Of a stretch of DNA of 64,000 nt, positions 3,908 through 64,000 are shown one piece after another. A program made the position numbers and the translations under genes. Location of the stretch: positions 60,899,701 through 60,963,700 of the forward strand of contig OY292275.1 in the NCBI GenBank assembly GCA_958496175.1, in the 5' to 3' direction. Source of the DNA: Sisyra terminalis. Its lineage: Eukaryota; Arthropoda; Insecta; Neuroptera; Sisyridae. The notes under the pieces are model-generated. The model saw nothing but the letters and a program-made list of their open reading frames with translations. It made no database searches and was not told the DNA's origin. How positions within the stretch are numbered: position 1 is the stretch's first letter; each line of letters begins with the position of its first letter.

Positions 3908-3939
3908 GAGACTTCAATGCTGGGTAAGAACACAAACCC
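3908..3939 (+). other. 32-bp box, solitary copy
   Basis: GAGACTTCAATGC, 12 bases containing GGGTAAG, then CAAACCC. It is a full match to the box shared by several arrays (see findings). The surrounding 3650-4640 region is otherwise AT-rich and unremarkable. Confidence 0.75.
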
Positions 3940-4535
3940 TGATCTTACTGCTTTGGATAACTTTTTAATTTTTTTAATGGTAAGGCCATATAATTGGACA
4001 TAAATAAAGGGATGATATAGTTAAATTAATGCTTCTACCCCCCTTCTACCCCTTCACCAATCTTTCCCCTAGTAAGTCGTAGTGATCTCAATTTGTTCCA
4101 GTTAGGATCATTGGGTTTTTATTTTTTCGTGGCTCATAAAAATTGAAATATTTTTCGACTAAGGTTATTTTAAAAAGGTCTTCCACATCAAATCCGGGCC
4201 AAATTTTCAGGTTTCAAAACATAAAAACGATGAAAAGCTCTTTGGAACTATTTTTCTTATTCCCTTGATTCAGCCTTATATAATGGTTTGCAATGGCTTA
4301 TATTGTAGCTAGGATAGGACAGTTACCAGGGGCAAGGATTTCCTTGTCTTTTGGAAGCTTGCATAAATCATTTTCGTGGTTTATTCGAGGAAAATCGAAG
4401 GGATTCGAAAGATTCTTCGCAATTCTTTTCTTTCCAAAGCTTTTAAGCGCTTTAAGAACCGGGTGAACCCCAAATTTCTTCGATTCAAGCATTTTTATTG
4501 GAGATTTAAATACCTAGGAAAACAAATATTTTAAA

Positions 4536-4567
4536 GAGATTTCAATGCTTCATAAGAAAACAAACAG
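4536..4567 (+). other. 32-bp box, solitary copy
   Basis: GAGATTTCAATGC, 12 bases containing ATAAG, then CAAACAG. It lies in the same orientation as the copy at 3908, 628 bp downstream. Confidence 0.7.
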
Positions 4568-4635
4568 TCCTCAAAAATGTTTCCCCCAAAAATCCTCATT
4601 ACCATGGCTTGTTTTAACTTCCTCATCATGAAAAC

Positions 4636-5186
4636 AAAGAATGCGTTTCTTGTTGCATAACATATTGTTGCATTTGTCACACCAAGTGTGCTAATTGTCT
4701 GGCCAATTTGTACCATTGCCGACGACCAATTTGCAAAACGATGCAAATTACCCCGCGATCTCCCCGGCCACCGGGGTCTTTACCTTGGCGGCCATAAATG
4801 TCTTCGATTTGATTTACGACATAGCCGCAACAACGACCGTTTCAAATAATCTTAGAATATGACATTGTATGTAAATTGCAATTGCAGTAGTATACTATAG
4901 CTACCTATGGAGAGATTTTTCTATGAATTTCTGCTCCGATTATATGAATGGTAAATTACCATGGTAAGTACCATTGGCAGAGGAAAGCGCCCACCCGCCG
5001 CCCGCCGCCACCCTCCGCCATGGGGACGGATAAATCAAACGGATTCCCTCTAATTGAATCGCGACGACCGAACGATTCGTTGCACAAATTTTTACTGCAC
5101 TCGAACTGCACTCGTAATTGCCATTTATTTGTCAGCCGATCTCGATTATCCGGTTATACAAAACCGACTTGGGTAAATCATGGTTA
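4636..5186. other. Single-copy GC-richer island
   Basis: The sequence becomes distinctly less AT-rich. It includes a perfect small hairpin CCCCGG-CCA-CCGGGG near 4763-4777 and a GCC-rich patch near 4990-5020. The 80-aa plus-strand frame at 4948-5190 has no recognised domain. I see no splice signals that would define an exon. The composition fits a regulatory or intergenic island. Confidence 0.4.
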
Positions 5187-5579
5187 TTAAATGTTATGGG
5201 CTTTAAATTTGCCTTAAAGGATTTCCTTCATTGTCTACTTTTTAAACAAAGAACATAAAAAATGCTTTGATCAACGTTAATCGTACGATTTTTCTGGATT
5301 TTCCCCCATAGAAACTATCGGGAAAGTTATTTTTCTTTTAAATCAATTTTCCGAGTTAATAAATAAATAGTTTTTCACTTTATTTGTTTACATCTTCAAT
5401 AGGTAACTTGACACTAAATCAAAATAAGATTTTTTCGCTGACTTTGACCAGTTATACTGTGTATACAATATATAGAATAAATTGCGGTCCAATTTATGCA
5501 ATATAATTTAATATAGGTAATAATATATAAAAATCATACCATAAACATAAGTTTGAACAGAAGTTCAAACAAAAATATT

Positions 5580-5640
5580 CGTGACGTATTGCCACGATAC
5601 GTATTTCGATTGCCAAGCAATCTTTCTCAGTGGTCATCAA
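5580..5640 (-). ncRNA. Penelope-like hammerhead-type motif, degenerate
   Basis: On the minus strand it reads CTGAGAA, A, then GATTGC-TTG-GCAATC and GAAATACGT, followed by ATACGTC about 12 bases on. The layout (CTGANGA, hairpin, GAAA, short stem, GTC) resembles hammerhead ribozymes reported in Penelope-like elements. Here the conserved CTGANGA is altered and an extra A precedes the hairpin, so activity is doubtful. Confidence 0.2.
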
Positions 5641-5957
5641 TTAGTTTGGATCACTCCGATTCTTAATTTCATTGCATTACCTTAATACTTCTTCGACAAA
5701 AGTTTGAACATTTTATTGTACAATAAAAACAATTACCTGTTAATTGGTTTTTCAGATTATTATCAAATCCTGATAAGGTATACAAATGTAGAGGTAACCA
5801 CCAATTTACAATGATTTTAGCTTTGGTTAGGAGGCCAAATTTTAATTAAATACTTAAATGTTTACTCATTGTTTTTGATGAAAGAGCAACTAACATTAAG
5901 ACAGAAATTTATTGTACTCTTGCAAACAAGGGCGGATTTAAGCGGATTTTTAGGGCA

Positions 5958-5998
5958 GATACGTATTTCGATTGCCAAGCAATCTTCCTCAGTGGTCA
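5958..5998 (-). ncRNA. Penelope-like hammerhead-type motif, 5' part
   Basis: On the minus strand: CTGAGGA, A, GATTGC-TTG-GCAATC, GAAATACGTATCTG. The core is better kept than in the copy at 5580. Downstream the sequence diverges (GCCCTAAAAATCCGC) before any ATACGTC, so the motif is truncated. Confidence 0.2.
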
Positions 5999-6722
5999 TC
6001 AAGTAGTTTGGATCAGTCCGATTCTTTATTTCATTGCATTACCTTAATGCTTCTTCGACAAAAGTTTGAACATTTTATTGTACAATAAAAACAATTACCT
6101 GTTAATTGGTTTGCCAGATTATTATCAAATCCTGGTAAAGCAGAAAAATGATGTAGATTGCTTGGAAATCGAAGTACGTATCTGGGCAATACGTCACGAA
6201 TATTTTTTTTTGAACTTCTGTTCAAATTTATGTTTATGGTATGATTTTTATACATTATTACCTATATTAAATTATACTGCGTAAATTGGACCGCAATATA
6301 TTCTATATAGTGTACAAACAGTATAACTGTTCAAAGTCAATGAAAAAATCTTATTTTGATTTAGTGTCAAGTTACCTATTGAAATCGTAAACAAATGAAG
6401 TGAAAAACTATTTTTTTATCTCGAAAAATTTATTTAAAAGAAAAATTACTTTTCCAATAGTTTCTATGGGGGAAAATCCAGAAAAATCGTTATTTTATTA
6501 AATTATACTGCATAAATTGGACCACAATATATTCTATATATTGTACACACAGTATAACTGTTCAAAGTCAGCGATAAATCACTTTTCCAATAGTTCCTAT
6601 GGGGGAAAATCCAGAAAAATCGTACGATTCAAGTTGATCAAAGCATTTTTATGTTCTTTGTTTAAAAAGTATACAATGAAGGAAATCCTTTAAGGCAAAT
6701 TTAAAGCCCATAACATTTAATA

Positions 6723-7230
6723 TCCGCCTAAATTTTTTATATATATTATTATATTAAATTATACTGCATAAGTTGAACCGCAATATATTCTATATATTGT
6801 ACACACAGTTGACACTAAATGAGACTTCAATGCTAGATAAGCGACCAAACGATAGAAATATCTACGTTTTCTATGGTAAAAATGTCAAAAAAAACATTAA
6901 AATAGAAGATGGAGGATATAAATGATCCATTGATACCATAAATCACCAAAAAATCAACAAGTTTCAATAAAAAATTTAGCCAAATTGTTAAAGTTGGTTC
7001 ATTAAAATTCTACAAGAATATTATTTGAACGATAAACTTGTTCAACTGATCAATTGGAATGTTTATTAGAAATTAATCGATCTGTCCGAGTCAATCGATA
7101 ATAATTCCTGTTCATATTTTACGGCATTCGATAAAATATAGATCATTGCATTTTTTTTATATTTATTTGGTCTTCAACATAATTTCCTTCTTTTCGAAAC
7201 GATAATGTTTATAATGGTCTCACATCAATC

Positions 7231-7232
<2 letters not shown>
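6723..7232. other. AT-rich DNA with fragments of repeat C and one 32-bp box
   Basis: A fragment of the GGACCGCAATATATTC family lies near 6775-6810 (here GAACCGCAATATATTC). It is followed by GACACTAAAT and a 32-bp box at 6821-6852. The rest is AT-rich and unique, with no supported gene. Confidence 0.5.
6821..6852 (+). other. 32-bp box, solitary copy
   Basis: GAGACTTCAATGC, then TAGATAAGCGAC and CAAACG-type sequence. It directly follows a repeat C terminus. Confidence 0.7.
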
Positions 7233-7297
<65 letters not shown>

Positions 7298-7312
7298 TAG
7301 ATAGATATAGAG
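7233..7312. repeat. (AT)n microsatellite with GATA tail
   Basis: About 60 bp of uninterrupted AT dinucleotides ends in AGATAGATAGATATAGAGATG. It is a simple-sequence tract and probably variable in length. Confidence 0.95.
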
Positions 7313-7489
7313 ATGAAGAGATGAAATAACTGCAGATCGAATAAGTGCAATCAATGCAGATAATTGAAGATTTTCCCGTGCATCACGTGCAGCAATGCAG
7401 TTGCATCCCGTCTATGTATGGAAGGATCTATTTAATCAATTTAGATCAAAAAATAACGGGCAATTTTTTACACCAAACAGAGAATATGG

Positions 7490-10480: not shown

Positions 10481-10489
10481 GATGCTTAT

Positions 10490-11504
10490 TGTTTTTGGCT
10501 TTCGGGTAGGAAAATTAGGAAGATATTAATAGTAGTTAGATTTTTTTTAAAGAATATTCATCAGTATTTAGAAAAGATTAATTTCTTTTGTAGGTTTTTT
10601 AAAGCATTTTGCAAGAAGATAATAAGTCTGATATGTTGAGGAATCTATAGAAGAAGAGCTTAAGAATTATTCGTTGTAAAACGGAAAAGACTAAAAGAAA
10701 ATCTTGGTCTTTATCTTAGGAAATTTGTCGAATGATAAATTATTGATTGAAAAATTACATTTTCATTGGAATTGTTTTGATGGTGGACAATGACGAAGAA
10801 GTCGTATTTGGAGTGGTGAGTTTCTTGGGACCACTCGTTATGGACTTGAAGATTGTATGAAAAGACAATGCGGACGTTTGTAATTCGTTGTTTCTTGTTG
10901 TTGATCGGATGATGAGGAAAAACGAGAACAAGTCAATCATGTGTCACTCACTAACAACACCATCTTCACGCTTCTTACAATCTCAAAGAAATCACACCGC
11001 CATCTCACACTACCATCCAACCACCGCCGGGCCTACATCCACTTTTCGGCCAAAAACGTCTTCTGGGCCTCGATTTTTCGCGCCGCGCTACGTCCCGAAG
11101 GATTTCTGGCTTTCTGGTTTTCTGGTTTCTTGCGCGAAAAGATGGTTGATGATGTTAATATAATAAGACGTGGGCGTTTTTATATCCGTGTAAACGTCAT
11201 GGAATATATGATAAATATCTTGAACTGCAGAGGCGTTTGCATTGGCCCAAGGTCTTTATAGACATTGTCAACGATGGAAAAAATTTCATATTTACTATGT
11301 GTGTAGCCCATTCTCTCTTATATGGCACTATATTAATATCAAATGGCATTCGCAGGCGGGCACCATTAAAGCCCTTGTTGCTAGTCACATAACACGACAC
11401 GAACACCAAATGCATTCCGCCATTCCTATATGCATTTGCAAGAAATCAAAAACGGTAACATCAACGCTTCATACGGCAACAAACCCGACAAAACCAGAAA
11501 CCAC
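10490..11504. other. Single-copy island
   Basis: An AT-rich start passes into more balanced sequence from about 10770. Overlapping frames of 91-106 aa exist near 10.9-11.3 kb but contain no recognisable domain. No repeat of this DNA was seen elsewhere in the window. Confidence 0.4.
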
Positions 11505-11507
11505 TTA

Positions 11508-20884: not shown

Positions 20885-22870
20885 TGGTCTTCTCATATAA
20901 AAATCAATGATTTTAAGGTTGAAAAAATTTCATCCCTTATCATTTCTTGGAGAACTCCTTCAATAAAATATTGCAGTTGCAATAAAATCGTTCAAACCAT
21001 TAAGAAAATATGATTTTTTTTAAATTTTTTCATCCCTCACAATGATTTTTTTAAGGGATGAAACTTGATAAATTGTAAACTTTAATCAATAATTTTCACC
21101 GAAAAAAAAAATCAAACAAATCAATGCAAGAATATCCATTCTGTACTTACATGTACAATCTGTACTAATAAGATATTTAAAAAAAAAAATTCAACCCTTA
21201 CGATGAAATTTTTGAGGGATAAAACTTGATAATTAGTAAGTATAAGTCAATAGTTTTTACTGAAAAAAAAATCAACAAAATCCATGCAAAGATATTTGAT
21301 CTATGCTTATTTTTAAGTCTCATATAGCAGAGATTTCAATGCATGAAGTTACACAAACCCGGGTTCTTCGTATTGCCTTATAGGTTCACAAAAAAAAGAT
21401 TTTTCGTTAAAATTTATTGCACCAAAAGGAAATGGGTCAAATTTTATTAGACTTGGTTGTATCCCAGAAGATTATACATCAAATTTTTAGGGTTGAAAAA
21501 AAATTTTATCCCTTATCAATTCTTGGAGATCTCCTACAATAAAATATTAAAGTTGCAATCCAATCGTTCAAAACATTAAGCAAATATGATTTTTTTAAAA
21601 TTTTTCCTACCCTCACATTGAATTCTTTTAAGGGATGAAATTTGATAAATTGTAAACTTTATTCAATAGTTTTCACCGAAAAAAAATCAATAAAATCTAT
21701 GCAAAGATCTTTGATCTATGCTTATTTTTAAGTCTCATATAGCAGAGATTTCAATGCATGAAGTTACACAATCCCGGATTCTTCGTATTGCCTTATAGGT
21801 TCGCAAAAAAAAAGATTTTTCATGAAAATTTATTGCACCAAAAGGACATGAGAAAAATTGTATTATGCCTAGAAGATTATACACCAAATTTGTAGGGTTG
21901 AAAAAAAAATTCATCCCTTATCATTTCTTGGAGAACTCCTCCATAAAATATAAAAGTTGCAATCAAATCGTTCAAAACATTAATCAAATGTATATTTTTT
22001 TAATTCTTTTTAATCCTCATAATACATTTTTTAAGGGATGGAACTTGATAAATTAAAGGTTTAAATCAATAGTTTTCACCGAAAAAAATCAAACATATCT
22101 ATGCCAGCATATCCAATCTGTACTAATAAGATAATTAAAAAACAAAATCAAACCTTATGGTGAAATTTTTAAGGGATAAAACTTAATAAATTGGAAATTT
22201 AAGTCAATAGTTTTCACCAAAAAAAAAAAAAAAATCAATAAAATCCGTGTGGTGGTATTTGATCTATGCTTATTTCTAAGTCTCATATAGTGGAGATTTC
22301 AATGCATGAAGTTACACAAACCCTGGCTGTCCGTATTGCCTTATAGGTTCACAAAAAAAAATTGACTTTTCATAAAAATTTATTGGAAAAAATTAAAAAG
22401 TGACCAATTTCATTATGTTTTATTAATGCCTTTTTGATTGGAAATAATTTACACCCCAGTTTTTAAGAGTATAATTTGATTTTAAGGGATGAAACTTAAA
22501 TAAATGATTAAATTTATGTTAAGAGTAGTTTCCAAAAAACCAAATGAAATATCTTGAAAATTTTTTTTTGCACTTCGGGAGGCTTTAACGTTTGATAAGA
22601 ACGTAAGCCATGGTTTTCTACTGTTGGCTTCTGATGGATTTTTATGGCAATAATTCGGACCCCATTTTCTAAGAAAATAATATAATTTTAAGGGATGAAA
22701 CTTAAAAATTGATTAAATTTATGTTAAGAGTAGTTACCAAGAAACCAAAAGAGCTATTTTTGCTAAATTTTGGGAGATTTCAACGATTGATAAGACCACA
22801 AACCATGGTTTTCCACAATTGGCTTCTGATGAATTTTGATTGGGATATTTGAGGAAAAAGAAATGGAAAA
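20885..22870. repeat. Tandem array, left arm of a 5-kb inverted pair
   Basis: Units share TTCATCCCTTATCATTTCTT, CGTTCAAA.CATTAA, AAGGGATGAAACTTGATAAA, AATAGTTTTCACCG-type and CTGTACTAATAAGAT. They also share GATCTATGCTTATTTTTAAG, a 31-bp box (21330-21360, 21745-21775, 22293-22323) and CGTATTGCCTTATAGGTTC. Unit starts near 20920, 21490 and 21900 show two lengths (about 570 and 405 bp), differing by loss of an internal block. The last two units (about 22430-22860) are a related subfamily with TTAAATTTATGTTAAGAG, CCATGGTTTTC and a 32-bp box at 22774-22805. Confidence 0.85.
22774..22805 (+). other. 32-bp box within array
   Basis: GAGATTTCAACGA, then TTGATAAGACCA and CAAACCA. It pairs with the reverse-strand copy at 24522-24553 across the central island. 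Confidence 0.7.
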
Positions 22871-24344: not shown

Positions 24345-25800
24345 TTGATATTTTATTGTAGGAGATCTCCAAGAAAATATAAAGGATGAAAATAATTTTT
24401 AACACCAAAATTTTGATGTATAATCTTCTAGGCATAATAAAATTTGTCTCATTTCCTTTTCCATTTCTTTTTCCTCAAATATTTCCATTAAAGTCCATCA
24501 GAAGCCAATAGTGGCAAACCATGGTTTGTGGTCTTATCAATCGTTGAAACCTCCCAAAGTAGAAAAAAAAAATTCGCAAGAATAGTTCATTTGGTTTCTT
24601 GGTAACTACTCTTAACATAAATGAAATATTTTTTTTTTAAGTTTCATCCCTTAAAATTATATTAGTCTCTTAAAAACTGGGGTGCAAATTATTACCTGTC
24701 AAAAAAATCAAGAAAACATAATAAAATTTGTCACAAAATCATTTTTTTTGTGAACCCATAAGGCAATACGAAGAACCCGGGTTTGTGTATGTTCATGCAT
24801 TGAAATCTCTGCTATATGAGACTTAAAAATCAGCATAGATCAAATATCACCGCACGGATTTTATTGATTTTTTTTCCGGTGAAAACTATTGACTTAAGCT
24901 TACAAATTATAAAGTTTCATCCCTTAAAAATTTCATCATAAAGGCTGAATTTTGTTTATTAAGTATCTTATTAGTACAGATTGTATATGTAAGTACAGAT
25001 TGGATATGCTTGCATAGATTTGTTTGATTTTTTTTTTCGGAGAAAATTATTGATTAAAGTTTACAATTTATCAAGTATCATCCCTTAAAAGTAATCATTG
25101 TGAGGGTTGAAAAAATTAAAAAAAAACATATTTGCTTAATGGTTTGTACGATTTGATTGTAACATTGATATTCTATTGAAGGAGTTCTCCAAAAAAGAAT
25201 AAGGGATGAATTTTTTTTTCAACCGTAAAAATTTGATTTATAATCTCCCAGGTTAAGACCAAGTATAGTAAAATTTGTCCCATTTCCTTTTGGTGCAATA
25301 AATTTTAAAGAAAAATCATTTTTTTGTCAACCTATAAGGCAATTCGGAGAGCCCGGGTTTGTGTAACTTCATGCATTGAAATCTCTGCTATATGAGACTT
25401 AAAAATAAGCATAGATCAAATATTCTTGCACGGATTTGCTTGATTTTTTTTGTGATGAAAACTATTGACTGAAATTTCAAATTAGTTGAGTTTCATCCCT
25501 TAAAATTTCATCATAAGGGTTGAATTTTGTGTTTTAAATATCTTATTAGTACAGATTATACATGTAAGCACAGGTTGGATATGCTGGCATAGATTTGTTT
25601 GATTTTTTTTCGGAGAAAATTATTGATTAAAGTTTACAATTTATCAAGTTTCATCCCTTAAAAAATTCAATGTGAGGGTTGAAAAAATTAAACAAAAACA
25701 TATTTGCTTAATGTTTTAAACGATTTGATTGTAACTTTGATATTTTATTGTAGGAGATCTCCAAGAAAATATAAGGGATGAAAATAATTTCTAACCCTAA
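24345..25800. repeat. Tandem array, right arm of the inverted pair
   Basis: This is the reverse complement of the left-arm units. Landmarks are GCATTGAAATCTCTGCTATA (24797 and 25373), TTTCATCCCTTAAAA, CTTATTAGTACAGATT, GTTTGATTTTTTTT and ATATTTGCTTAATG. Boxes lie at 24522-24553, 24779-24809 and 25355-25385, all on the minus strand. The innermost sequence mirrors 22430-22870 (CATTTCTTTTTCCTCAAATA). Confidence 0.85.
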
Positions 25801-29374: not shown

Positions 29375-29427
29375 GTCTAAGACTTTAATTATAGTTAAAC
29401 AAATAGTTTTCCACATTAAATAAATTG

Positions 29428-29459
29428 GAGACTTCAACGTTACGTATGAAACGAAACCC
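29428..29459 (+). other. 32-bp box, solitary copy
   Basis: GAGACTTCAACGT, TACGTATGAAAC, then GAAACCC. It is nearly identical, including the upstream TTAAATAAATTG, to the copy at 36551, so these two derive from one longer dispersed unit. Confidence 0.75.
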
Positions 29460-29653: not shown

Positions 29654-29685
29654 AAGTTTGTCGCCTTACCAAGCGTTGAAGTCTC
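29654..29685 (-). other. 32-bp box, solitary copy
   Basis: On the minus strand GAGACTTCAACGC, TTGGTAAGGCGA, then CAAACTT. It faces the copy at 29428, 194 bp away. It is closest to the copy at the right window edge (both contain GGTAAGGCGACAAAC). Confidence 0.75.
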
Positions 29686-30469
29686 TTCTACTGAAACTTT
29701 TAAGGAAAGTTATACAGTTGAATCTTCTTTGTTCCAAATCAAATTCATAATTTCACCGTTGTTTTTTTTTTTTTTTGTTTTCCACTTGGTAATTATATGG
29801 GGAGGTTGTCCTTCGGGAGCGCAAGCAAGTGCGTTAAAGACCAATTGATGCCGAAGAGCATGGTGGATGGCGGCCACACGCTTCTCTTGGTATAATAAGG
29901 CGATGTTTAAACGATTTTATGGTTCAAATTGATAATCGAGTTGGAAAACTACTGAACGCCCGCTGCGTTTATTTCACATTTTTCTTTTCTTTTCTTTCTT
30001 CTCTACATGTTCGTTGGTCTTATATATTTTGAAATTGCCTGGCGGCGAATGAACAAATCAGAAAAAAAAAAACAATCTGATGGTATTATCATGGAATGGA
30101 AATGGTCTTTAAGCGATTATAAGTGTACGCTTGATTTTGAAAAATGGAAATTGCCAACGCCCCAAGTACGAGAACGATTTTTTCTTTTCGGCTGAAATTT
30201 TTCCCCTTTCGTACCTACGATTGAAGCTTACTATCATACATTTATCACTTCCGTGAATCTTGAAGGCGTGTTGGTATGAAACTTAATTTACAAGAGGGCT
30301 TCTGGTTAAGTAATATGTAAAGAATTTTCCGGATTAACATTTACAACTCCCCTTTTCTCCGCTTTAATAAATTAAATAATTTTTATTTTCAAGTACTTTT
30401 ATCAGCATCTATTGAACACAAAAAAACACGATTAAGAGTGTTGATTTTGGGTTAAACAAATGACAGTCG
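29686..30469. other. Single-copy island
   Basis: Unique sequence, GC-richer at about 29790-30000 (GGAGGTTGTCCTTCGGGAGC region), then a 62-aa open frame at 30007-30195 without a domain. No repeat was seen. Confidence 0.4.
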
Positions 30470-36290: not shown

Positions 36291-36770
36291 ATAGTTTCAG
36301 GTAAAAGATTAACCAAACACTTTGTATAATTGAGGAAAATTATATGTTAAGCTCTTGGAATAATAAAAGATTTTTCTGTGAATATTTCCCAATGATAATT
36401 TGGCCTCAAATATGATTCAAATCAATTTTTTTTCTCTTTATTTTGGTGTTAATTATAATGCACTCAACCAATTCGTTAATCTAGAAACGAAAAAAGAAAA
36501 AAAATTTTTAATTAAAAACGAAAAATATAATTTTCCCATTAAATAAATTGGAGACTTCAACGTTACGTATGACCCGAAACCGGCTCTTGCAAACCCATTC
36601 GTTTTTCTAGACCAATTGATCGAAAACTATTGATCTCTTTTACATGGGGAACCAAAATTGAAAATTTCGTCATATTTTTAACATAATCGGATTTATTTTA
36701 AGGTAAATAAAAATTTGCTGGATTATTATTTTTTTTTTTTTGAATTATTGCGTACCGATTAGGAAGAGAA
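36291..36770. other. AT-rich DNA with one 32-bp box
   Basis: Contains the box at 36551-36582 and otherwise unique AT-rich sequence. Confidence 0.4.
36551..36582 (+). other. 32-bp box, solitary copy
   Basis: GAGACTTCAACGT, TACGTATGACCC, then GAAACCG. With its flank TTAAATAAATTG it is a sister of the copy at 29428. Confidence 0.75.
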
Positions 36771-42145: not shown

Positions 42146-42177
42146 GGGTTTCGAAGCTAGCCACGCATTGAAATCTC
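42146..42177 (-). other. 32-bp box, array copy
   Basis: On the minus strand GAGATTTCAATGC, GTGGCTAGCTTC, then GAAACCC. It is the first of six in-phase boxes. Confidence 0.8.
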
Positions 42178-42486
42178 TTAAATTTCCATAGGTGGCTGTG
42201 ATTTGCCTAACGGCAAATTTAGATTCCCTCATGTAAAGCTATTTACCTTCCATTATATCCTTCGAATTGGGGTACCAAATGTTTTTCTTGTATTTTCCCC
42301 TAAGTTTTCCAATCGAAAGATTCTTCTTCTTGTTTAGTAGGCAAATGATTTTATATTATTCATTTTGTTTTGGATTTTAACTATAAGAAGTCCAATTTTG
42401 ATTTTTATTAAAAAAAACCAAAAGATTTAGCTTAAACATTGATGAATCCTAATGAAATTGGGGAAATTTTTTTACTACTTTGATGA

Positions 42487-42518
42487 GGGTTTAAAAGCTA
42501 TCCGGGCATTGAAATCTC
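42487..42518 (-). other. 32-bp box, array copy
   Basis: On the minus strand GAGATTTCAATGC, CCGGATAGCTTT, then TAAACCC. The hAT element inserted 59 bp beyond its plus-strand right end. Confidence 0.8.
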
Positions 42519-42576
42519 TGAAATTTTTATGGGTGGCTGTGGTTGGATTCTTGGCTTAATGGTATAATTTACGTTT

Positions 42577-42792: not shown

Positions 42793-44607
<1,815 letters not shown>

Positions 44608-45418: not shown

Positions 45419-45450
45419 GGGTTTGAAAAGTAGCCCAGCATTGAAATCTC
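45419..45450 (-). other. 32-bp box, array copy
   Basis: On the minus strand GAGATTTCAATGC, TGGGCTACTTTT, then CAAACCC. Confidence 0.8.
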
Positions 45451-45769
45451 TTTAATATTTATATAGATGGCTATGATTTGATCGGATCTGTCGTCTACCC
45501 TAAAGAAAGTTTTAGTCTTCCTCATCTAAAATTGCCTACCTTCTGTGGCATCCTCCAACTCTGGATCTTCTTTTTTCGATATTTTACTTTAAAATTTTCA
45601 CTAAAAAAAATCCTCCCTGATTTTGAGGGTGCAAAAGGACTTATACATAGTTTTTTTTTTGAGGGGATTTAATTATAAGAAGTCCAACTTTCATTTTCGA
45701 TCAATGAAACTAATATAGATTAAGTTTTAAATGTGATAAATCTTTATAAACCCTTGGCCATTTTTATGA

Positions 45770-45801
45770 GGGTTTGGAAGTTATTCGGGCATTGAAATCT
45801 C
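45770..45801 (-). other. 32-bp box, array copy
   Basis: On the minus strand GAGATTTCAATGC, CCGAATAACTTC, then CAAACCC. Confidence 0.8.
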
Positions 45802-46110
45802 TAAAATTTCTATAGGTGGCTATAGGTGTTCCGATTTCTTGCCTAAAACGGCCGTTTTTGTCTGCCTTATCTAAAGCTGCCAACCACTTGTTGGCTTCGC
45901 TAAGTCGGTATTTATATGTTTTTTTGTGTTTTACTTCTCAAAAGATTTTTTTTCTGTTGAGAGTGTAAAAAAATTAAACCAATTTTTTCAGATTTCAATT
46001 ATAAGAAGTTCTACTTTCGTTTTTTGTTTGAAAAAAAAAACTCCTTAGATTTAGTTAAAATTTTCACAAATCCTAAAGAAATTGGCAAAAGCTCTTAGCC
46101 ACTTTGAAGA

Positions 46111-46142
46111 GGGTTTTAAAGCTAACCAAGCATTGAAGTCTC
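46111..46142 (-). other. 32-bp box, array copy
   Basis: On the minus strand GAGACTTCAATGC, TTGGTTAGCTTT, then AAAACCC. Confidence 0.8.
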
Positions 46143-46300
46143 CTCAAATGTACAGAGGTGGCTTTGATTTTATGTTGTGATTTATAGTTTTCCTCGTCCA
46201 AAACTATCAACCATCTGTTATATTTTCCAAGTCTATATAACATTTTTTTTTTTTTGATTTCCCAATGAAAGTTCTTTAATGAAATTCCTCTTATCTTTAT

Positions 46301-46524: not shown

Positions 46525-46556
46525 GGGTTTTGCAACTATCGAAGCATTGAAATCAC
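46525..46556 (-). other. 32-bp box, array copy
   Basis: On the minus strand GTGATTTCAATGC, TTCGATAGTTGC, then AAAACCC. It is the sixth box, displaced by the repeat C insertion. Confidence 0.75.
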
Positions 46557-47289
46557 CGATTGGGTGATTTGATAGAGAAGCATTTTTTTCTTTTTCGATC
46601 GATAGTGAAAAATCGATGCGGTTCGAGGCGATAATTATACATAGCGATGGCGACGCGGTGGTTGGTGTGGGGCCGCGGGGTGAAATCGACATTTAATTAC
46701 ACAATAATTATCAAGTGCACCTCATTACGAACTAACTATTTTATCATAAACGGAATGCGCTAACGAGGCTAACGTTGGTGGCTGTTTTTTTTTTTTTTGG
46801 AATTTCTTCTTGACGTCTTGTAGTGTGGCATTTTTCCGAATCGCAGTTGAATAATAATGCAAATGTGCATGCGATGAGGCGCGCGATTGGCCCCCGGTGC
46901 TGATTTAAAATGCACCTTTGGCACCTACATTCGAGAGGCTGTTAATCTAATTACAAACGGAATTGGCCAAGCGAGTTTCAATCGTTTTTTATTGACATTT
47001 GAGAAAACACATTGGAGAAATTGCCGGGCAAGTGTGGCGGGCGTGGTCGCCTCCTCGGCCACTCTATTTTACTTTCCTTCTAGCACACTTTTAGTTCACT
47101 GCGTTGCCTTATCAATTAATTATGTTTTACCTGTTGCTCTATTGCTCTATTATTGCTTCAACCGATTTCAAAGCGCTGTAATCTCTACAAAGATTTTTTT
47201 CCGAAGACCCAAGAAAAAGATGGAATTAAATGGTGCAAGAGTTTCAATGGTTGATTCTCGGTGATTTAAACTCTTTCACCACGGAAATT
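46557..47289. other. Single-copy GC-richer island
   Basis: Unique sequence, GC-rich by local standards (ATGGCGACGCGGTGG near 46645, GATGAGGCGCGCGATTGGCC near 46873). The 125-aa plus-strand frame at 46887-47264 has no recognised domain. It could be chance in less AT-rich DNA. Confidence 0.4.
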
Positions 47290-47844: not shown

Positions 47845-50000
47845 AAGAAATGTAATTCCCCTGTCAATATTAAACTGTTATCAGGTGATTTTGAGTATAA
47901 ACCTCAATCTAAGGTCTGGATGGATCAAAGTACAGTTTTTCCTCATTTAAATATGGATAAAAACATGTATGCAATTCACCAAATCACGACTTTAGTTATT
48001 CCCCTGGCCACATTAAACGAGGTTAAGATATGTAATTCCCTTGTCAATATTAAACTGTTAACAGGTGGTTTTGAGTATGAAAATCAAAAGTGTGCAGTGA
48101 AATTTGAAAACCTCAATCTAAGGTCTGGATGGATCAAAGTATAGTTTTTTCATTGAAATATGGACAAAAAAATGTATGCAATTCACCAAATTGTGGCTTC
48201 AGTAATTCCCCTGGCCACATTAAACATTGGTAAATAATTAGGTGTTTTGCTCTATACTTTCGGTCAAATTAGGGCACAGAAAAGTCATGGCTTGACCAGG
48301 TAATTGTTACCAATTAAATTTTAAAAAAAAACATGCAATTTAGTAGCAATTACTTTCTCATTGTAATTCCCCTGGTAACATTAACTTTTGACAAAAAAAT
48401 GGGGACAAATTGTAAAATTTTGCCATTCATATGACTAAATAAATGCACAAAGAATCTCTAGTTTGACCAAAAAATTCTTTTTATTTTACTCAAAAAATGT
48501 AACAACAAATTATTAATGGAATTCTCAAGCACATACGTTAATCTACTAATAATCCTATGTAATTCCCCTGTCAACATAATTCTGATAAAAATGGGAAAAA
48601 AGTATAAGGTTTTCATCTTCATTTGGCCAAATAATACGGAAAGAGGTTTGAACAATTAAGTATTTGCATAAAAAATACATTGAAAACGCAGATGGAGGTA
48701 ATATTCTTAAGGATTCACTATTGTACCAATGTAATTCCCCTGGCATTATTAAGCCGAAAAAAATGAAAAATGTTGCTCTTTATTTGGTTTTATACGGGCA
48801 CAAAAAAGGTCATGGCTTAATAGCTTAATGTTTTTATAAAAAAAAAAAAAAAAACAAAAAAACATTCAATTCATTAGGTGTTAGGTCAACCATACCCATG
48901 TAACTCCCCTGGCAATATTAATTTCGACAAAAAATTACGAAAAAAGTGGAAGATTTTGATCTTCCTTGGTTCAAATAACGATGCGAAGAAAAATTGCGGG
49001 CCTCACCAAATAAATTGTATGCATAAATCAGTGATGAAAAGTAAATGGAGATTATTCATAAGTCTTCATTGCTATCGTTATTCATATGTAATTCCCCTGG
49101 TTACATTAACCAAGCAAAAATATGATGTTTTGCTCTTCATTTGCTCAAATCCGGGTCCATAAGTCGTGGCTTGACCTGATAAATGTTTCTTACGAAAAAA
49201 AAATATATAAAAGTATATGGAAATCATAAGCACTTATTAGCATTCCCATGTAATTCCCCTGGCAACAATAACTTTGAAAAAAAAAACTTTGAAAAAACGA
49301 AAATCACTGCAATAGGTGGTTGCGTAACGTTAAGCGAAAACGTACAACTACGAAATTATAAAGTTTTATTCAAAATCCTGGCTTAACCGCGTAAAATTTG
49401 CCATCATAAAAATCACCACCTAGTAAGTAATTCCCCTGGTTCATATTAACTGAGAAAGAAATGCAAAAATGCAAAATATTCCTTCTTCCTTGATCAAACA
49501 AGGATACAAAAAAGGCTTGACTAAATCATATAAGTTTTTGTTAGTTAAAATACATTCAATTTATAAGTAGGTACTTACTATCTTCCATTCCTATGTAATT
49601 CCCCTGGTAACATTAACTCTGATTTAAATGGGAAAAAAGTATAAGGTTTTGATCTTCACTTGGGCAAATAAAAGGATTATAAAAATAATTTGAGGTTTGG
49701 GTAATTAAGTTTTTGCATAAAAAATACATTGGAAAAGTAGATGGGGATAATTTTCATAAGGATTCACTTTTATACCGATGTAATTCCCCTGGCAACATTA
49801 AACTGAAAAAAATTCCCCGGGTAACAATATATGATACAGGCAAACTTTGATCTTCATTTGTTTTAATTAGGATATCTACCACGAAAAAAATCGAGCTTGA
49901 CCCACTTCATTTTTTTTTTGGACATAAAAGAATTCATTAGTTATCACTATCAACTATTCCCATGTAATTCCTCTGGCAGCGTCAATTTTGCAAAAAAATT
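47845..50000 (+). repeat. Satellite array with about 176-bp units and a GTAATTCCCCTGG box
   Basis: The box or a one-base variant begins at 47852, 47995, 48032, 48202, 48363, 48559, 48731, 48900, 49088, 49250, 49437, 49595, 49780 and 49974, all on the plus strand. Apart from a 143/37 split at the left, intervals are 158-196 bp, mean about 176, tending to alternate short and long. The box usually extends to GTAATTCCCCTGGCAACATT. The rest of each unit is much more diverged, keeping only traces such as a GATCTTCA.TTGG.CAAATA block. Frames reading CNSPG arise from the box itself. Confidence 0.9.
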
Positions 50001-50489
50001 CGAGAAAACTTGTAAAAATTTATCGCAAGTCCACGAGTGACCAAATGGTCAAGGTGGTCACTTTAAAACTGCAAGGTGCAGGATCCTTGTGTAAAGCAAA
50101 TTTTCCTACTTTATCGATTTACGCTTTTTATTCAACTCTTGAGTACCTAAAATTCTTGCCAGTCACAAAACGACGATTAATTACAAAAAAAAAAAACAAA
50201 ATTTTATAGAATTAAGCTCTTGAAAGCTTAATCCTTACATATACAATGGGCAAATGTGAAGAACAAACTTTGATGCTTAATTTCATTGTTTTTTTTTTCG
50301 ATTGAAAATCGAAAAGCACTACAACAGGTGGTTGTGTAAGGCCCACTTAAAAGCTCAAATATAAAATGAGGAAAAGCTTTACTTCAAAATTCCAAGTTAT
50401 AGAGCTTTAAAGTTCAGTCCAACTGTTATGATTTTACGATCGAATTTATCGCTTTTAGGGAAATCGTAAAAGGCGAACGACAACAGGTG
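50001..50489. repeat. Degenerate transition sequence with ACAACAGGTGGTT
   Basis: AACAGGTGGTTGTGTAAG (near 50323) and AACAGGTGGTTTTAT (near 50482) recur about 160 bp apart; a relative, AATAGGTGGTTGCGTAACG, lies at about 49311. The word is the reverse of ACCACCTGTT in the 7.5-10.5 kb array. No gene was recognised. Confidence 0.5.
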
Positions 50490-52249: not shown

Positions 52250-53780
52250 GAGTTTAGCGTTAAAAAATTAGAGTATAATCGATGGATTTTAAAAGTTTGA
52301 AGGGTGGTTATGGATGATTTAAGGATCTAAAATTATCAGGGAACATTTTTTATTACCAAAGGGTTGAAAATTTTGGGGTTGAAACCATTTTTATTGACCT
52401 TTTATGGAGATTTTCGTGGTTCAAATTGATTTTGAACGACTAAATTTGATATCCGAGATTTCTGCAAAAATTTACTTCAAAAAATTAGAGTATAATCGAT
52501 GGATTTTAGAGATTTGAAGGGTGGCTATGGATGATTTAAGGACCTAAAATTATCAGGGAACATTCACTCTTACTAAAGGGTTGAAAATTTTGAGGTTCAA
52601 ACCATTTTTTTTGACATTTTAAGAAGATTTTTGTGTTTCAAATTGATTTTGAACGACAAAATTTGATATTTGAGATTTCTGCAGAAATTTCTTTCCTCCA
52701 ACAGTAGATGATGGCTTATTTTAAAGTTTGATCCATATTTAAAAAGTAAAAAACATAAAAATGTTAAAGATTTGGTGATCTCAATGTCCAAACATGTCAA
52801 AAGTTCTGAAGGATTTCCTTGAATTCAATGGAAATAATAGAAGTTTATCTTAAAATAAATTAGGATAAAATCGTTAGATTTTAATGGTTTTAAGGGTGGT
52901 TTTCGATGGTTTTTAGACCTTAAATTTTCAGGTGATATTTTTTCGTACTAAAGGGTTGAAAATTTTGGGGTTGAAACCATTTTTATTGACCTTTTATGAA
53001 GATTTTTGTGTTTCAAATTGATTTTGAACGACAAAATTTGATATCCGAGATTTGTGCAAGAATTTACATACAAAAAATTAGAGTATAATCGATGGATTTT
53101 AGTGATTTGAAAGGTGGTTATGGATGATTTAAGGACCTAAAATTATCAGGGAACATTTATTCTTACCAAAGAGTTGAAAATTTCGGGGTTGAAACCATTT
53201 TTATTGACTTTTTATGAAAATTTTTGTGATTCAAATTGATTTTGAACGAACAAATTTGATATCTGAGATTTCTGCAAAAATTTCCTTCCCCAACAGTAAA
53301 TGATGGCTTATTTTAAAGTTCGATTTATGTTTTAAAAGTAAAGAACATAAAAACGTTTAAAAAATGCTGGTTTCAATGCCCAAACACGTCAAAAGTTCTG
53401 AAGAAGTTCCTTGAATTCAATGGAAATAAGAAAAGTTAATCTTAAAATAAATTGGGGTAAAATCGCTAGATTTTAAAGGTTTTAAGGGTGGTTTTCGATG
53501 GTTTTTGAACCTTAAATTTTTAGGTGATATTCTTTTGTACCAAAGGGTTGAAAATTTTGGGATTTAAACACTTTTTAGTGTCATTTCATTGGGATATTTG
53601 GACTCCAAATTAGTTTTCAACAACAAAATTTGATATCCTCAATTTCGGCAGCAATTTTCATTCCACAACAGTAAATGATATCTTATTATTAAGTTCGATC
53701 CATATTTTTAAATTCAATAACAAAAAAACGTAAAGAAATCGGCGATTTCAATGCACAACCACGACAGAAACATAAAAGAA
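52250..53780. repeat. Higher-order satellite array (592-bp unit = about 218 + 374)
   Basis: ATTAGAGTATAATCGATGG or the variant ATTAGGATAAAATCG lies at 52267, 52484, 52859, 53078 and 53451. Spacings are 217, 375, 219 and 373, so short and long subunits alternate and two 592-bp higher-order units are present. The long subunit ends with GGTGATCTCAATGTCCAAAC, TTTCAATGCCCAAACACGTC or TTTCAATGCACAACCACGAC (near 52773, 53369, 53737), a diverged 32-bp box. Confidence 0.9.
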
Positions 53781-54162: not shown

Positions 54163-54194
54163 GGGTTTGTGTTCTTATCGGGCGTTGCAGTCTC
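54163..54194 (-). other. 32-bp box, solitary copy
   Basis: On the minus strand GAGACTGCAACGC, CCGATAAGAACA, then CAAACCC. Confidence 0.7.
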
Positions 54195-54546
54195 TCATGT
54201 AAGGGCTCATTAAAGTAGCCGTAACTATCATATTTTCACACCGATTTCAATGTTTTTTTTTTCGTAAATTTTCATTGGCATCATATTGAAATTTTTATAG
54301 CTAACACCCCTTAAAAATTAACTTTTTAGGGGTGAGAATTATTTAAAAAAATATTTATATTTTAAATGCATTGACTGAAGTTTTGTTTCAACTGCCTAGC
54401 AGGGAATCAAAGAAAAATTAATTTATCCCTTAAAAAAGCAAATTTTAAGGGTTGAAATATTATAAATGCTATTGTTTCAGTAGTATCTACTTATTGTTGA
54501 AGCAAAAAGTACAAATTTATTTCCTTATCGAATCGATTTGATTAAA

Positions 54547-54578
54547 GAGACTTCAATGCGTCGGAAAGAACCTAAACA
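54547..54578 (+). other. 32-bp box, solitary copy
   Basis: GAGACTTCAATGC, GTCGGAAAGAAC, then CTAAACA. The 3' part is shifted by one base. Confidence 0.65.
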
Positions 54579-55091
54579 CCTAAACAAAGGTCTTATAATA
54601 AAATTAATATAAATGACTTACCCAAAAATGGTGCACTATAAAGTTCTGCAAAAAAAGGAAATTATATTTAATTTAAAACCAAAAAAATTCCTAAAAAAAA
54701 AATTAAAACGAACTTTCAATGTGGAAGATGCAATGATTACAACTGTCTTTCCTGCACTATGCTACCTTCTTCAACAATACAGCAAGAAAAATATTTTTTT
54801 TACTAAAATGACGTTTTTTTGGTAAAATTAAATCCAGAATCAAAGACGATGCATCTATTTTTGCCGCCCGGGGCGGCCATCCAAAAATTCGCTGCCCTCT
54901 ATTTTCATTATTAGTCAAGAAATTTAGAAAAAGCCAAACCTCTTTTAATTCTTTCATCACAGTAAAATCTTTTATAGACTTCACATTGTCAATATGCCAC
55001 CCCATTTTCATGTGCCACCCGGAGCTATGCTCCCTTTCCTTCTGCACCCCCCATTCTATGCTAATGTCGTGAATTATGAACAAAAATTTAA

Positions 55092-55123
55092 GAGATTTCA
55101 ATGATTGATAAATGCCAAACGAC
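55092..55123 (+). other. 32-bp box, solitary copy
   Basis: GAGATTTCAATGA, TTGATAAATGCC, then AAACGAC. It resembles the 22774 copy in its TTGATAA centre. Confidence 0.65.
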
Positions 55124-57508: not shown

Positions 57509-57620
<112 letters not shown>

Positions 57621-58869: not shown

Positions 58870-60117
58870 ATATTTTTTCGATTAAAAGCCCATTTGGAAT
58901 GAAAAACTTTGGTAATTTCAATGCCAGGGTAAACATACTATAAAGTAATTCCTCTGGTAGCAATTTTTTTGTCGAATCTCAAAGGAATTAGTATTTATAC
59001 GGAGAGTATATGCTAAAAATTGGGAAGAGATTTCAATGCGTCGATATATGACGAACCCGAAGAATTTATTGCAGGGAATGGATTAAAAATTTGAATTGGG
59101 CGATTGCAATCATTAACGCTCAGCTTTTAATCGGTAAGGGAAGGCTTCGCCTTCCTCTTCCGGAAATTTGAAAATTCAAATATAAAAAAAGTAATTCCCC
59201 TGGCCGAAGATCGGCCGAAAATTCATAACGTATGATAGAAGTAATACAAATGAGGTATAAAGATGATTAGTTCTATTCTTTACATAAAGATAAATTTAAA
59301 CTTTTTTCTTGGGAGGCACTGAATAAAAATCTTCCATTGAAGACTTTTACCATAGAAATTTGCATAAGTTCTTCCACTTAAGTAAAAAACGTATTGGTCA
59401 AAAAAAAAAATTGTACCAAAGTGGTACCAACTTAACACCCGTTGAAATTTTCTTCATAAAAACACCGAATTGGAACGAAAAACAGAAGAGGATTTCAATG
59501 CCAGAGTAAAAAAAAATGAAGAGCAAATATAACGTAATTCCCCTGGAATGTGTTTTTCCGTTGATAATCGATGGAATTTACCGATTTTTAAGAGTATATT
59601 GCTAATTTTGTACGAAATTTCAATGCATAAATACATGGTCAATCTTTGCCTGAAGAATTTGAGCTGAAAACTATAATGGTAAGTGTCACCATTTATTGGC
59701 TAGAGATAATAATTGGCCCAAATTTTTTTCGTGAGATTGTAAAATTGGTAACTCTTGTGTTTTAAGTAATTCAATTGAGGCAAAACTGATTTTTTCCAAT
59801 GTCAATGAGAAAATTAATAAAATTAATTCTTCCGGTATTCTCTAAGAATTGATGGACAAGTAGATGGACAGAAGCACTACTGAAATATTTCAATAAAAAA
59901 TTCGTATGTTAAATGATGGAAAATTAATTGGATTGGTGTGAAAATTAGTGGTGGATTGACCAATATTTGAAATTTCAATAGCAGGGCAAAGAACGAAAGA
60001 AGTAATTCCCCTGGCTGGCCGTTTTTCATTGAATATTGATCGATTTTCAAGAGTGTTAAATAATGGAGACTGGTAGCATAATGAGGAGATTTCATGGCGT
60101 GGATGTGCAACGAACCC
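58870..60117 (+). repeat. Composite units: 32-bp-type box, GTAATTCCCCTGG, second box
   Basis: Three units start at TTTCAATGCC or TTTCAATAGC (58916, 59493, 59973). GTAATTCCYCTGG follows at 58945, 59534 and 60002, and a second TTTCAATGC-type box at about 59031, 59616 and 60090. An extra GTAATTCCCCTGG lies at 59191. The second boxes in units 1 and 3 are full 32-mers (59027-59058, 60086-60117). Sequence between boxes is poorly conserved apart from AGAGT.TAT. A perfect hairpin GGAAGGC-TTC-GCCTTCC sits at 59139-59155. Confidence 0.8.
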
Positions 60118-61320: not shown

Positions 61321-61328
61321 ATTGCCCA

Positions 61329-61360
61329 GGGATTTCAATGCATAGATGTGCCACAAACCC
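61329..61360 (+). other. 32-bp box, solitary copy
   Basis: GGGATTTCAATGC, ATAGATGTGCCA, then CAAACCC, at the edge of the island. Confidence 0.75.
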
Positions 61361-61504
61361 TTGCCTAAAGAACATAGGCTGTAATAAATCTCAATACTTT
61401 TGCTCCCTTTACTCCCTTATACTTTCCCGTTGAAAATTATTGTAGTTTATGGCTTATAGATTATACGCAAAACGTAAAAAGATCCAAGAAAAAAATAACA
61501 GAAA

Positions 61505-62800
61505 AATTAAAGCCCGGATTAGAACCAGGGGCACCAATATTGTGGTAGGCCAGAGGAATTTGAAAATTTGAAAATTTCTTCTCAAATTTTTTTGGAAAAA
61601 CGATTGTAAAATTGGCCAAATTAACTTTGTTCTTTAAAATTAGCGTTCCCTAAGTAAAATGGTTAAAAAATGGTGACTTCAATGCAGGGAATTATCACGT
61701 ATATCATCAATGTAATTCCCCTGGTAAGCATTTTATTCGGTCAGAACATATAGATTACATTCAAATTGTCAGGAAATTTCAATCTGTAGACATTTAGTGA
61801 CCCCTGCAATCTTCTTTAATATTAATTTCATGTAAAGCTCACTTGATTAGAACCAGGGGCACCAATATTGTGATAGGCCAGAGGAATTTAAAAATTTGAA
61901 AATTTCTTCTCAAATTTTTTTGAAAAATGATTGAAAAATTGGCCAAATTAACTTTATCCTTTAAAATTTGCGTTCCCTTAGTAAAATGGGTACAAAATGG
62001 TGACTTCAATGCATGGAACCATCACGTATATCATCAATGTAATTCCCCTGGTAAGAATTTTTTTCGGTTAGAACATATAGATTACATTCAAATTGTCAGG
62101 AAATTTCAATCTGTAGACATTGAGTGATCTCTGCAATCTTCTTAAATATTAATTTCATGTTAAGGCCCGGATTAGAACCAGGGGCACCAATATTGTGATA
62201 GGCCAGAGGAATTTGAAAATTAAAAAAATTCTTCTCAATTTTTTTTGAAAAACGATTGAAAAATTGTCCAAATTAACTTTGTCCTTTAAAATTAGTGTTC
62301 CCTTAGTAAAATGGTTAAAAAATGGTGACTTTAATGCATGGAACCATCACGTATATCATCAATGTAATTCCCCTGGTAAGCATTTTTTTCGGTTAGAACA
62401 TATAGATTACATTCAAATTGTCAGGAAATTTCAATCTGTAGACATTTAGTGACCCCTGAAATTTTCTTATATATTAATTTCAATTTTAGGCCCGGATTAG
62501 AGCCAGGGGCACCAATATTGATAGGTCAAAGGAATTAGAAAATTTGAAATTTTTTTGGAAAAACGATTGAAAAATTGACCAAATTATCTTTAACCTTTAA
62601 AATTAGCATTCCCTTAGTAAAATGGTTAAAAAATGATGACTTCTATGCATGGAACCATCACGTATTTCATCAATGTAATTCCCCTGGTAAATATTTTTTT
62701 TTGTCAGAACATATAGATTACATTCAAACTATCAGGAAATTTAAATTTCTAGTCATTTGGTGACCCCGGCAATCTTCCTAAATAATAATTTCATGTTTCA
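61505..62800 (+). repeat. About 325-bp tandem array, four units, with linked boxes
   Basis: The unit start GATTAGA(A/G)CCAGGGGCACC lies at about 61517, 61848, 62170 and 62494. Each unit carries GGTGACTTCAATGC or a variant, then GTAATTCCCCTGG at 61712, 62039, 62364 and 62675, followed by TAAGCATTTTTTTCGG-type, AACATATAGATTACATTCAA and TGTCAGGAAATTTCAATCTG. Three units keep an open frame of about 60 aa across the boxes; the first is frameshifted. Confidence 0.9.
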
Positions 62801-62849
62801 AATGAGGATTCCCCCCCCCCGAAAGTCAATTTTGGTGAAGAAGTAAAGG

Positions 62850-63245
62850 GATGCGATCGAAACTAAGTTTTTTTTTCGATTTTCCACCAAATTTTTCATG
62901 GTTTAAGTAAATTTTTTTTTCAAAAATTGGCGGTTTAATATTTCACCATAAAGCTTAGAGCAAAAACAATGGATCATCCCTTGTTTTCCACCCTTAAAAA
63001 TCGATTTGAAATTTCCAAATTTAAATGGGACAATCGTTGACGAATTTCTTATTTAGCCATCGAAACTAAGTTTTTGTTCGATTTTCCACCAAATTTTCCA
63101 TGGTTTAAGTAAATTTTCTTTTTAAAAAATTGTCGGTTTATCTTTTCACCATAAAGTTTTGTGCAAAAACAATTAATCATCCCTTGTTTTCCACCCTTAA
63201 GAATCGACTAGAAATTTCCTATTTTAAATGGGAGTTTCGGTGTTG
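62850..63245. repeat. 203-bp tandem duplication
   Basis: CGAAACTAAGTTTTT starts at 62858 and 63061. The copies share CGATTTTCCACCAAATTTT, CATGGTTTAAGTAAATTTT, TTTCACCATAAAG, CATCCCTTGTTTTCCACCCT and GAAATTTCC.A.TTTAAATGGGA. Confidence 0.9.
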
Positions 63246-63969
63246 TATTTCTTCTTAAGCCTCATAAAATATCAACGTAGGTCAATTAACACCCTTAATT
63301 TTCAACCCTTTAAAAAGGCAAAAGTCACTTGATGCATTTAAGAAGTTTCATTGGTACCAAAAACTTTTGATCTTCCGACAAATACTTCTTAAATTTCAAC
63401 GAAAAAAAAAACCCAGTGATATTATTGCATTTTTTTGCTGTTGCATTTTGGTGACTTATGGCCCACGCAGGTCGTTGCAACCAGCCGATATGCCGCCGTG
63501 GCAAACTGGTAATTAATTTTTCCATAATTGCATGTGCAGAATTTCACACTGCTGGGACACGGCCGAACCATGCAATCCCACAACATATCGCACATCGTTG
63601 CAAATCTTAGGTATAGTAGTTGCCCCATTGTTGCATGCATAAATTAATTAATTTCGAACGGGGACGTCTCTTCCTGCTGTGATCGAACAGCATGCCTCGA
63701 ACCCGGGCCATTTACCACGCTCAAATTCGCCGCCAATTTGCCGACCCTCGTTATTTTAATTACAAATTATTTCGCATCGTGAAAAAAAGAAATTCGTTGG
63801 CGTTGGTGTTTGGGGAAACGATTTTACCATTGGATGCATGTTTGAGTCTTATTTAACAAGGGTGGGAGAGGGAGAAAGGATTAGTCTTCCTGGATATTAG
63901 TTGTAACTCAAAATATTTCAAGAACTTCTAATTTTTTTTGGGAGAATTATAGGGAATATCAAGAGGACA
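63246..63969. other. AT-rich DNA, then single-copy GC-richer island
   Basis: About 63430-63850 is unique and GC-richer. Short minus-strand frames (66-72 aa) have no domain. A GGGTGGGAGAGGGAGAAAGG patch lies near 63860. Confidence 0.4.
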
Positions 63970-64000
63970 ATGTTTGTCGCCTTACCTATCGTTGAAATCT
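63970..64000 (-). other. 32-bp box cut by the window end
   Basis: On the minus strand (first base beyond the window) AGATTTCAACGA, TAGGTAAGGCGA, then CAAACAT. It is closest to the copy at 29654. Confidence 0.7.

Follow-up and report, generated by a model that had tools for sequence, protein, structure and literature searches.

What keeps a short sequence nearly intact in repeats whose surroundings can no longer be aligned? This question is raised by a 64,000-bp stretch of the neuropteran insect Sisyra terminalis (C2:60,899,701–60,963,700; hereafter the window), for which an original prediction, made from the letters alone, listed 26 copies of a conserved box on both strands and took it for either a protein-binding site or the core of an ancient dispersed element. 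Here we analyse this element, box A, in the window and across the 376.6-Mb assembly of 11 contigs, which consists of six large chromosomes, one chromosome of 22.7 Mb and four small contigs, one of them (C11) the mitochondrion. On the basis of sequence comparisons, we propose with moderate confidence that a sequence-specific DNA-binding protein recognises box A as a bipartite site of 33 bp, and that selection on this binding has preserved the copies.

Box A is a rigid two-part motif with sharp edges

The box A unit spans 33 bp in a fixed two-part layout, RGAGAYTTCAATGC-N12-CRAACCC, in which the 14-bp block RGAGAYTTCAATGC and the 8-bp block (A)CRAACCC have their centres about two helical turns apart; one subfamily is a base shorter. 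The length had been claimed to be constant at 32 bp, with 31 bp in one subfamily, and both the constancy and the shorter subfamily hold, whereas the unit itself is 33 bp. All 26 listed copies are real and lie on the strand given for them, 24 of them base-exact; the minus-strand copies at 24779 and 25355, which belong to the 31-bp subfamily, reach their best score one base lower if 33 columns are read. Two copies, at 11455 and 53742, had been overlooked, and a matrix scan found weaker overlooked ones, mostly left-half, at 19577, 26492, 47519, 59614, 61673, 62000 and 62325. The left half, GAGAYTTCAATGC, occurs exactly 17 times in the window against 0 in ten simulated order-1 sequences, and 26 times against 0.5 when up to one mismatch is allowed.

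The main sample of 264 kb comprises the window and 200 kb fetched around exact box A matches; as the latter were picked for their matches, box density there is not typical of the genome. In this sample, a matrix built from the same sites marked 175 places above 12 bits, whereas order-2 Markov sequence gave 0.6 and the reversed matrix gave 0. Column statistics were drawn from 82 representatives, of which 66 came from families in the sampled regions (best score >24) and 16 from loci elsewhere in the genome (19 such loci in all, 18 plus L001); L045, a near copy of L044, and the short-spacer copies L056 and L058 were omitted. Across these representatives the 33 columns hold 36.8 bits, and information falls sharply at the edges: flank columns average 0.041 bit, with a maximum of 0.15, slightly above the mean of 0.032 bit for columns of randomly drawn flank bases, whose 99.9th percentile is 0.158. 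No second conserved column was found within 150 bp on either side. The flanks are thus far less conserved than the box, in agreement with the earlier description of a box that is kept in mostly unalignable surroundings.

The second half of the motif was recovered from sites chosen by the first. Among 139 such left-half sites, the exact right half CAAACCC stood at a spacing of 12 in 40 and at a spacing of 11 in 4, and at most once at each of 18 other spacings, so the spacer is rigid. In a search that left column 0 unspecified, all 37 exact matches carried a purine there. Among the representatives, columns 11–12 read CG in 11 and TG in 69, and columns 26–27 read CG in 11 and CA in 48. CG is frequent in dispersed copies where the C2 clusters have TG or CA, and deamination of methylated CpG would be one cause of this difference.

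Slower divergence of the two blocks

Divergence within the unit was measured on paralogs paired by both flanks with exactly 33 bp between them (57 pairs, 16 families), so that the second copy was not picked by its box. It amounted to 0.199 in the flanks, 0.097 in the left block, 0.193 in the spacer and 0.098 in the right block, and the family-bootstrap 95% intervals of the ratio to the flank were 0.18–0.92 (left), 0.27–0.71 (right) and 0.73–1.21 (spacer). One family contributes a left-block divergence of 0.79 that is a one-base register slip, which makes the left-block figure too high. In a wider set of 166 pairs, including truncated alignments, both blocks exceeded flank identity in every flank-identity class, and the spacer was slightly or not above it.

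The two blocks change more slowly than the spacer and flanks, within wide bounds, and this is the main support for a binding site. A motif that is bipartite, rigidly spaced and sharply bounded, and whose blocks diverge more slowly than the rest, fits a site contacted by a protein; of the two readings originally offered, the binding site would account for these properties, and the core of an ancient dispersed element is weakened.

Box A forms local clusters on six chromosomes

Exact matches to RGAGAYTTCAATGC-N12-CRAACCC number 57 genome-wide against 0 for the reversed control, and those to the AACGC form 38 against 0; with up to three mismatches from the pattern the count is 545 against 26 (places known for the first 100 of the 545). 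The genome therefore holds far more copies than the arrays first listed, and, the flanks being far less conserved than the box, both outcomes named in advance as refuting the original prediction failed to appear. A spacer-11 form with a looser right half occurs six times genome-wide, four of these in the window arrays at 21.3–25.4 kb.

The 95 exact sites are distributed as C2 55, C4 11, C5 10, C6 7, C1 6, C3 6 and C7 0, the zero on C7 not being telling as C7 makes up 6% of the genome and there are 32 clusters in all. One 2.7-Mb stretch of C2, at 60.9–63.6 Mb, contains 51 of the 95. Box A is absent from 41.8 kb at 12 loci not picked for the box, 8 kb of it within the C2 stretch, so the clusters are local. 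Among the ideas we rejected is a subterminal bias, for which thresholds were picked after inspection of the map: 23 of the 32 exact-site clusters lie less than 10 Mb from a chromosome end against 37% expected (p 8e-5; 20 of 29 without C2 above 60 Mb, p 7e-4), and the signal is weak at less than 5 Mb (10 of 32, p 0.07; without C2, 7 of 29, p 0.47).

Arrays, flanks and competing explanations

Local tandem duplication makes up 33% of the 264-kb sample and contains 96 of 158 boxes. Neighbouring boxes less than 2 kb apart lie on the same strand in 113 of 132 cases, at a median spacing of 362 bp (31 at 300–399 bp and 49 at 200–399 bp). These figures favour the strongest competitor, that box A has no present function and is all that can still be recognised of an ancient satellite whose monomers measured about 320–360 bp and whose re-amplified pieces form the arrays. 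Two small contigs, moreover, start with 334/335-bp satellites carrying another recurrent word, box D (below). Because the arrays have a 300–400-bp spacing and a few flanks are common to different chromosomes, box A may descend from an old satellite. As a full explanation we nevertheless regard such a relic as unlikely, if worth serious attention: most families have unalignable flanks (149 copies fall into 72 flank families, 49 of them single), just 14 of the 29 boxes in the window lie in arrays, which cover 37% of it, and a relic should decay evenly, yet the blocks are nearly intact and the spacer is not.

A further possibility, which we consider improbable, is that box A acts as a promoter or as a processing element for numerous small non-coding RNA genes, with every copy driving its own unique transcript downstream. 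Nematode 21U-RNA (PIWI-interacting RNA, piRNA) loci have an analogous layout, and a short conserved upstream-like element, unique downstream sequence and megabase clusters would all suit such genes. The absence of a second conserved column near the box speaks against it, as does the window itself, in which there was no Rfam match at gathering score. The window also contained no transfer RNA.

Still less probable is an origin of box A from a mobile element family, be it as a terminal piece, an internal piece or a mobile insertion of 33 bp. Dispersed copies, some with common flanks, speak for such an element; however, flank columns are near the random level, neighbours are co-oriented rather than inverted, and no genuine empty site was found among 16 candidates from 242 junction-spanning matches. 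Fourteen of the 16 had a box or decayed box beside the junction (scores 12.0 to 43.6), and the others were one AT simple repeat and one copy of a miniature inverted-repeat transposable element (MITE) with an AT-rich chance match.

Last, the coding motif GDFNA (GGN GAY TTC AAY GCN) of long interspersed nuclear element endonucleases, suggested by several variable left-block columns that fall on third codon positions, is refuted: frame 0 is open across −60 to +60 in 5 of 149 copies (other forward frames, 5 and 1), and the A at position 0 in half of the representatives would read Arg. On either side of box A, every reading frame is interrupted by about two stops per 90 bp.

Several points weigh against a protein-binding site. 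The copies were found by similarity, and part of the information inside box A is ascertainment; the flank-paired test is free of it, and so are the spacing, the right half at sites chosen by the left, and the purine at position 0, which serves as an independent check. Nor could choosing copies by similarity have produced the edges. The right half is absent at 20 of the 139 left-half sites. The paralog comparison comprises small numbers, all of 33-bp units, with an upper bound of 0.92 for the left block. Occurrence on six chromosomes with one dominant cluster could reflect history rather than function. Finally, 12 of the 19 distant loci had no flank match in the sampled DNA, and 4 share a box-side flank with another box locus, so that some copies have spread by ordinary duplication, which counts in favour of the satellite relic and against the binding site. 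The flank pairs are L044–L045 (85%), L043–L022 (75–82%) and L056–L029 (up to 79% over about 100 bp); L001, L049 and L055 contain dispersed-repeat pieces or a second box.

Two further analyses of the flanks were set aside. Box A as a breakpoint of local duplications was not convincing: duplication ends lie within 10 bp of a box in 35 of 158 cases against 30.9 expected (p 0.23), within 20 bp in 49 against 39.8 (p 0.04) and within 40 bp in 61 against 54.0 (p 0.07). A census of homology to one flank (among the matches listed, a box scoring >15 in 190 of 455 units, 9 between and 256 with none) was too noisy to use because of AT-rich weak matches, satellites and a MITE beside single boxes. A MITE-like repeat starting with AAGGTTTATAAAATACACAGGTGG abuts the right edge of two boxes (L017:7591 and L021:1819) and is also found in L036 on C7.

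A possible reader of box A and related systems

If box A is a binding site, its reader would be a protein that contacts it through two surfaces about two turns apart, a candidate being a multi-finger zinc-finger protein or a transposase-derived helix-turn-helix protein with two parts; the original prediction had suggested a long zinc-finger array or a dimer. Selection on binding would then keep the blocks while the arrays duplicate and drift, leaving about half or more of the sites in short, quickly diverging arrays with a spacing peak at 300–400 bp and the rest as lone copies. Bound arrays may in turn mark chromatin, with heterochromatin, insulators, piRNA source loci and meiotic contacts as candidates. 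Our first guess is a marking like that by CENP-B or Kipferl, and a meiotic contact is the boldest.

The CENP-B box, a 17-bp protein site kept in alpha satellite and in other unrelated satellites, offers the closest logic, in that box A is likewise a short site kept in repeats of otherwise unrelated sequence. It differs from the CENP-B box in being 33 bp long and in having many solitary copies outside arrays, and the CENP-B core TTCGnnnnAnnCGGG occurs in 0 of the 82 boxes with 10-bp margins on either strand and not at all in the window. The pairing-centre motifs of Caenorhabditis elegans, which are bound by the HIM-8/ZIM zinc-finger proteins needed for homolog pairing, are also short motifs clustered towards chromosome ends in unlike flanks; in contrast to those motifs, each on one or two chromosomes, box A is found on six, and in an insect. 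The recombination signal of RAG/Transib shares with box A two blocks, a 12-bp spacer and an A/C-rich second block. Its heptamer needs CAC, however, and columns 6–8 of box A read TTC in 77 of 82 representatives; a scan of the window for the signal was at chance level. Sites of insect ZAD zinc-finger proteins mark chromatin, as do CENP-B boxes. Kipferl reportedly has a link to satellites and a G-rich motif, than which box A is much longer and sharper. The marking proposed for box A would resemble the action of Kipferl as an insect zinc-finger protein that selects chromatin loci. In Drosophila, this ZAD zinc-finger protein guides Rhino to piRNA clusters (eLife 2022, PMC9531945).

Titles and abstract openings retrieved with GAGATTTCAATGC or five other motif strings, from a literature with few subscription journals, dealt mostly with human TP53 or other human genes, and none with insects or repeats. 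The logic of a conserved protein box in unlike repeats is established; a rigid bipartite 33-bp box with many lone copies, standing beside other boxes, is to our knowledge a new variant of it.

Other boxes recur in unlike flanks

An unbiased word count revealed further words that recur in unlike flanks. Box B, CCAGGGGAATTACW, has 710 exact matches genome-wide against 7 reversed, often co-oriented and in unlike flanks (window 47852–50008). Its places are known for the first 100 of the 710, covering C1 and part of C2; among these listed matches, 53 of the 65 on C1 lie beyond 59 Mb (the last 12.4 Mb), and of 35 C1 clusters merged at 50 kb, the last 10 Mb contain 21 and the first 10 Mb contain 4. 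Box D, TTTAAGGGATGAAA, is more abundant (5,416 genome-wide against 24 reversed), often in 320-bp steps, and the 100 matches listed are all on C1; in the form TTAAGGGATGAAA, with up to one mismatch, it occurs 42 times against 2 reversed in the 264 kb. It is found at 22483, 25514, 41854 and other places in the window, and in L037 and L038. The 334/335-bp satellite that fills the first 1,000 bases of C9 and C10 includes the initial 13 bases of box D, so an ordinary satellite explains much of this box. Box C, AACAGGTGGTT, has 21 exact matches in the 264 kb against 0 reversed (49 against 9 with up to one mismatch), stands in unlike flanks at 48060, 50323 and 50482 in the window, and is joined to box D in the L037 satellite. 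At 58912–60015 and 61673–62350 of the window, left halves of box A lie 20–26 bp from box B, with inverted CAGGG/CCCTG arms, and a left half of box A plus box B is a possible composite site.

The unrelated boxes A, B and D, and perhaps C, might together amount to a vocabulary of protein sites. Each would occupy fast-turning arrays of its own, of about 320–360 bp and in the outer parts of chromosomes, with different combinations in different regions and hence a positional code. We hold this to be doubtful.

Features of the window and its genomic setting

Positions of box A in the window are collected in Table 1.

Table 1. Copies of box A and related left halves in the window
Feature	Position	Strand	Remark
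Box A, exact consensus, solitary	3907..3939	+	
Box A	4535..4567	+	
Box A	6820..6852	+	
Box A, overlooked originally	11454..11486	+	score 23.8
Box A, short-spacer subfamily, within tandem array	21329..21360	+	
Box A, short-spacer subfamily	21744..21775	+	
Box A, short-spacer subfamily	22292..22323	+	
Box A	22773..22805	+	
Box A	24522..24554	-	
Box A, short-spacer subfamily	24779..24810	-	
Box A, short-spacer subfamily	25355..25386	-	
Box A	29427..29459	+	
Box A	29654..29686	-	
Box A	36550..36582	+	
Box A, array 42.1-46.2 kb	42146..42178	-	
Box A, array 42.1-46.2 kb	42487..42519	-	
Box A, exact consensus	45419..45451	-	
Box A, exact consensus	45770..45802	-	
Box A	46111..46143	-	
Box A	46525..46557	-	
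Weak box A, overlooked originally	53741..53773	+	score 22.1
Box A	54163..54195	-	
Box A	54546..54578	+	
Box A	55091..55123	+	
Box A, exact consensus	59026..59058	+	
Box A	60085..60117	+	
Box A	61328..61360	+	
Three left-half copies (61673, 62000, 62325), tandem array of period 325	61672..62356	+	26 bp after each stands GTAATTCCCCT, box B in reverse complement
Box A cut by window end	63970..64000	-	completed by the next contig bases

The C2 clusters contain genes: L014 has an ABC transporter (PF00005, two exons) that we take to be white, and L020 has a C2H2 zinc-finger gene; on C6, L025 carries an angiotensin-converting-enzyme-like peptidase (PF01401, 218 bits). A hAT-like open reading frame of 604 amino acids lies on the minus strand of the window at 42793–44607 (Pfam hAT dimerisation, 21.6 bits against a cut-off of 21.4). 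Its protein is 99% identical over 98% to one on a 3-kb contig from other collections and 61–63% identical to mammal proteins named FAM200C/ZBED8, which perhaps points to recent horizontal transfer, or else to insect DNA in those collections.

Five canonical telomere-type repeats were looked for at four sampled contig ends and none was found (the right end of C2 and the left ends of C1 and C3, L009, L011 and L012; the left end of C2, L010), and different short satellites stand at three of the four, which suggests that the contig ends are non-canonical or the assembly incomplete. The COX1 gene on the mitochondrial contig C11 is 97% identical to that of Sisyra aurorae, followed by Nevrorthus (94%), Nipponeurorthus (93%) and stoneflies (91% or less). 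For S. nigra (assembly GCA_958496155.1), six autosomes plus X are reported, with chromosome lengths that differ from those seen here and a longest chromosome of 64.28 Mb (PMC11162525); from this karyotype we guess that the 22.7-Mb contig is the X chromosome. In S. nigra males the sex chromosomes reportedly segregate without chiasmata (PMC12734326).

Significance of a conserved box in fast-evolving repeats

Conserved boxes in unrelated repeats have usually been argued from one satellite family. Here, a single box with sharp edges, a rigid spacer and about 37 bits is found, within one genome, in dozens of families that cannot be aligned with one another, and shorter boxes, too, are over-represented. 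Should the boxes indeed form a positional code, it could serve homolog recognition, heterochromatin nucleation or the marking of piRNA sources. Box A can serve directly as bait to isolate a repeat-binding protein from a non-model insect, and it allows one to ask whether rapidly evolving repeats owe their persistence to the proteins that read them.

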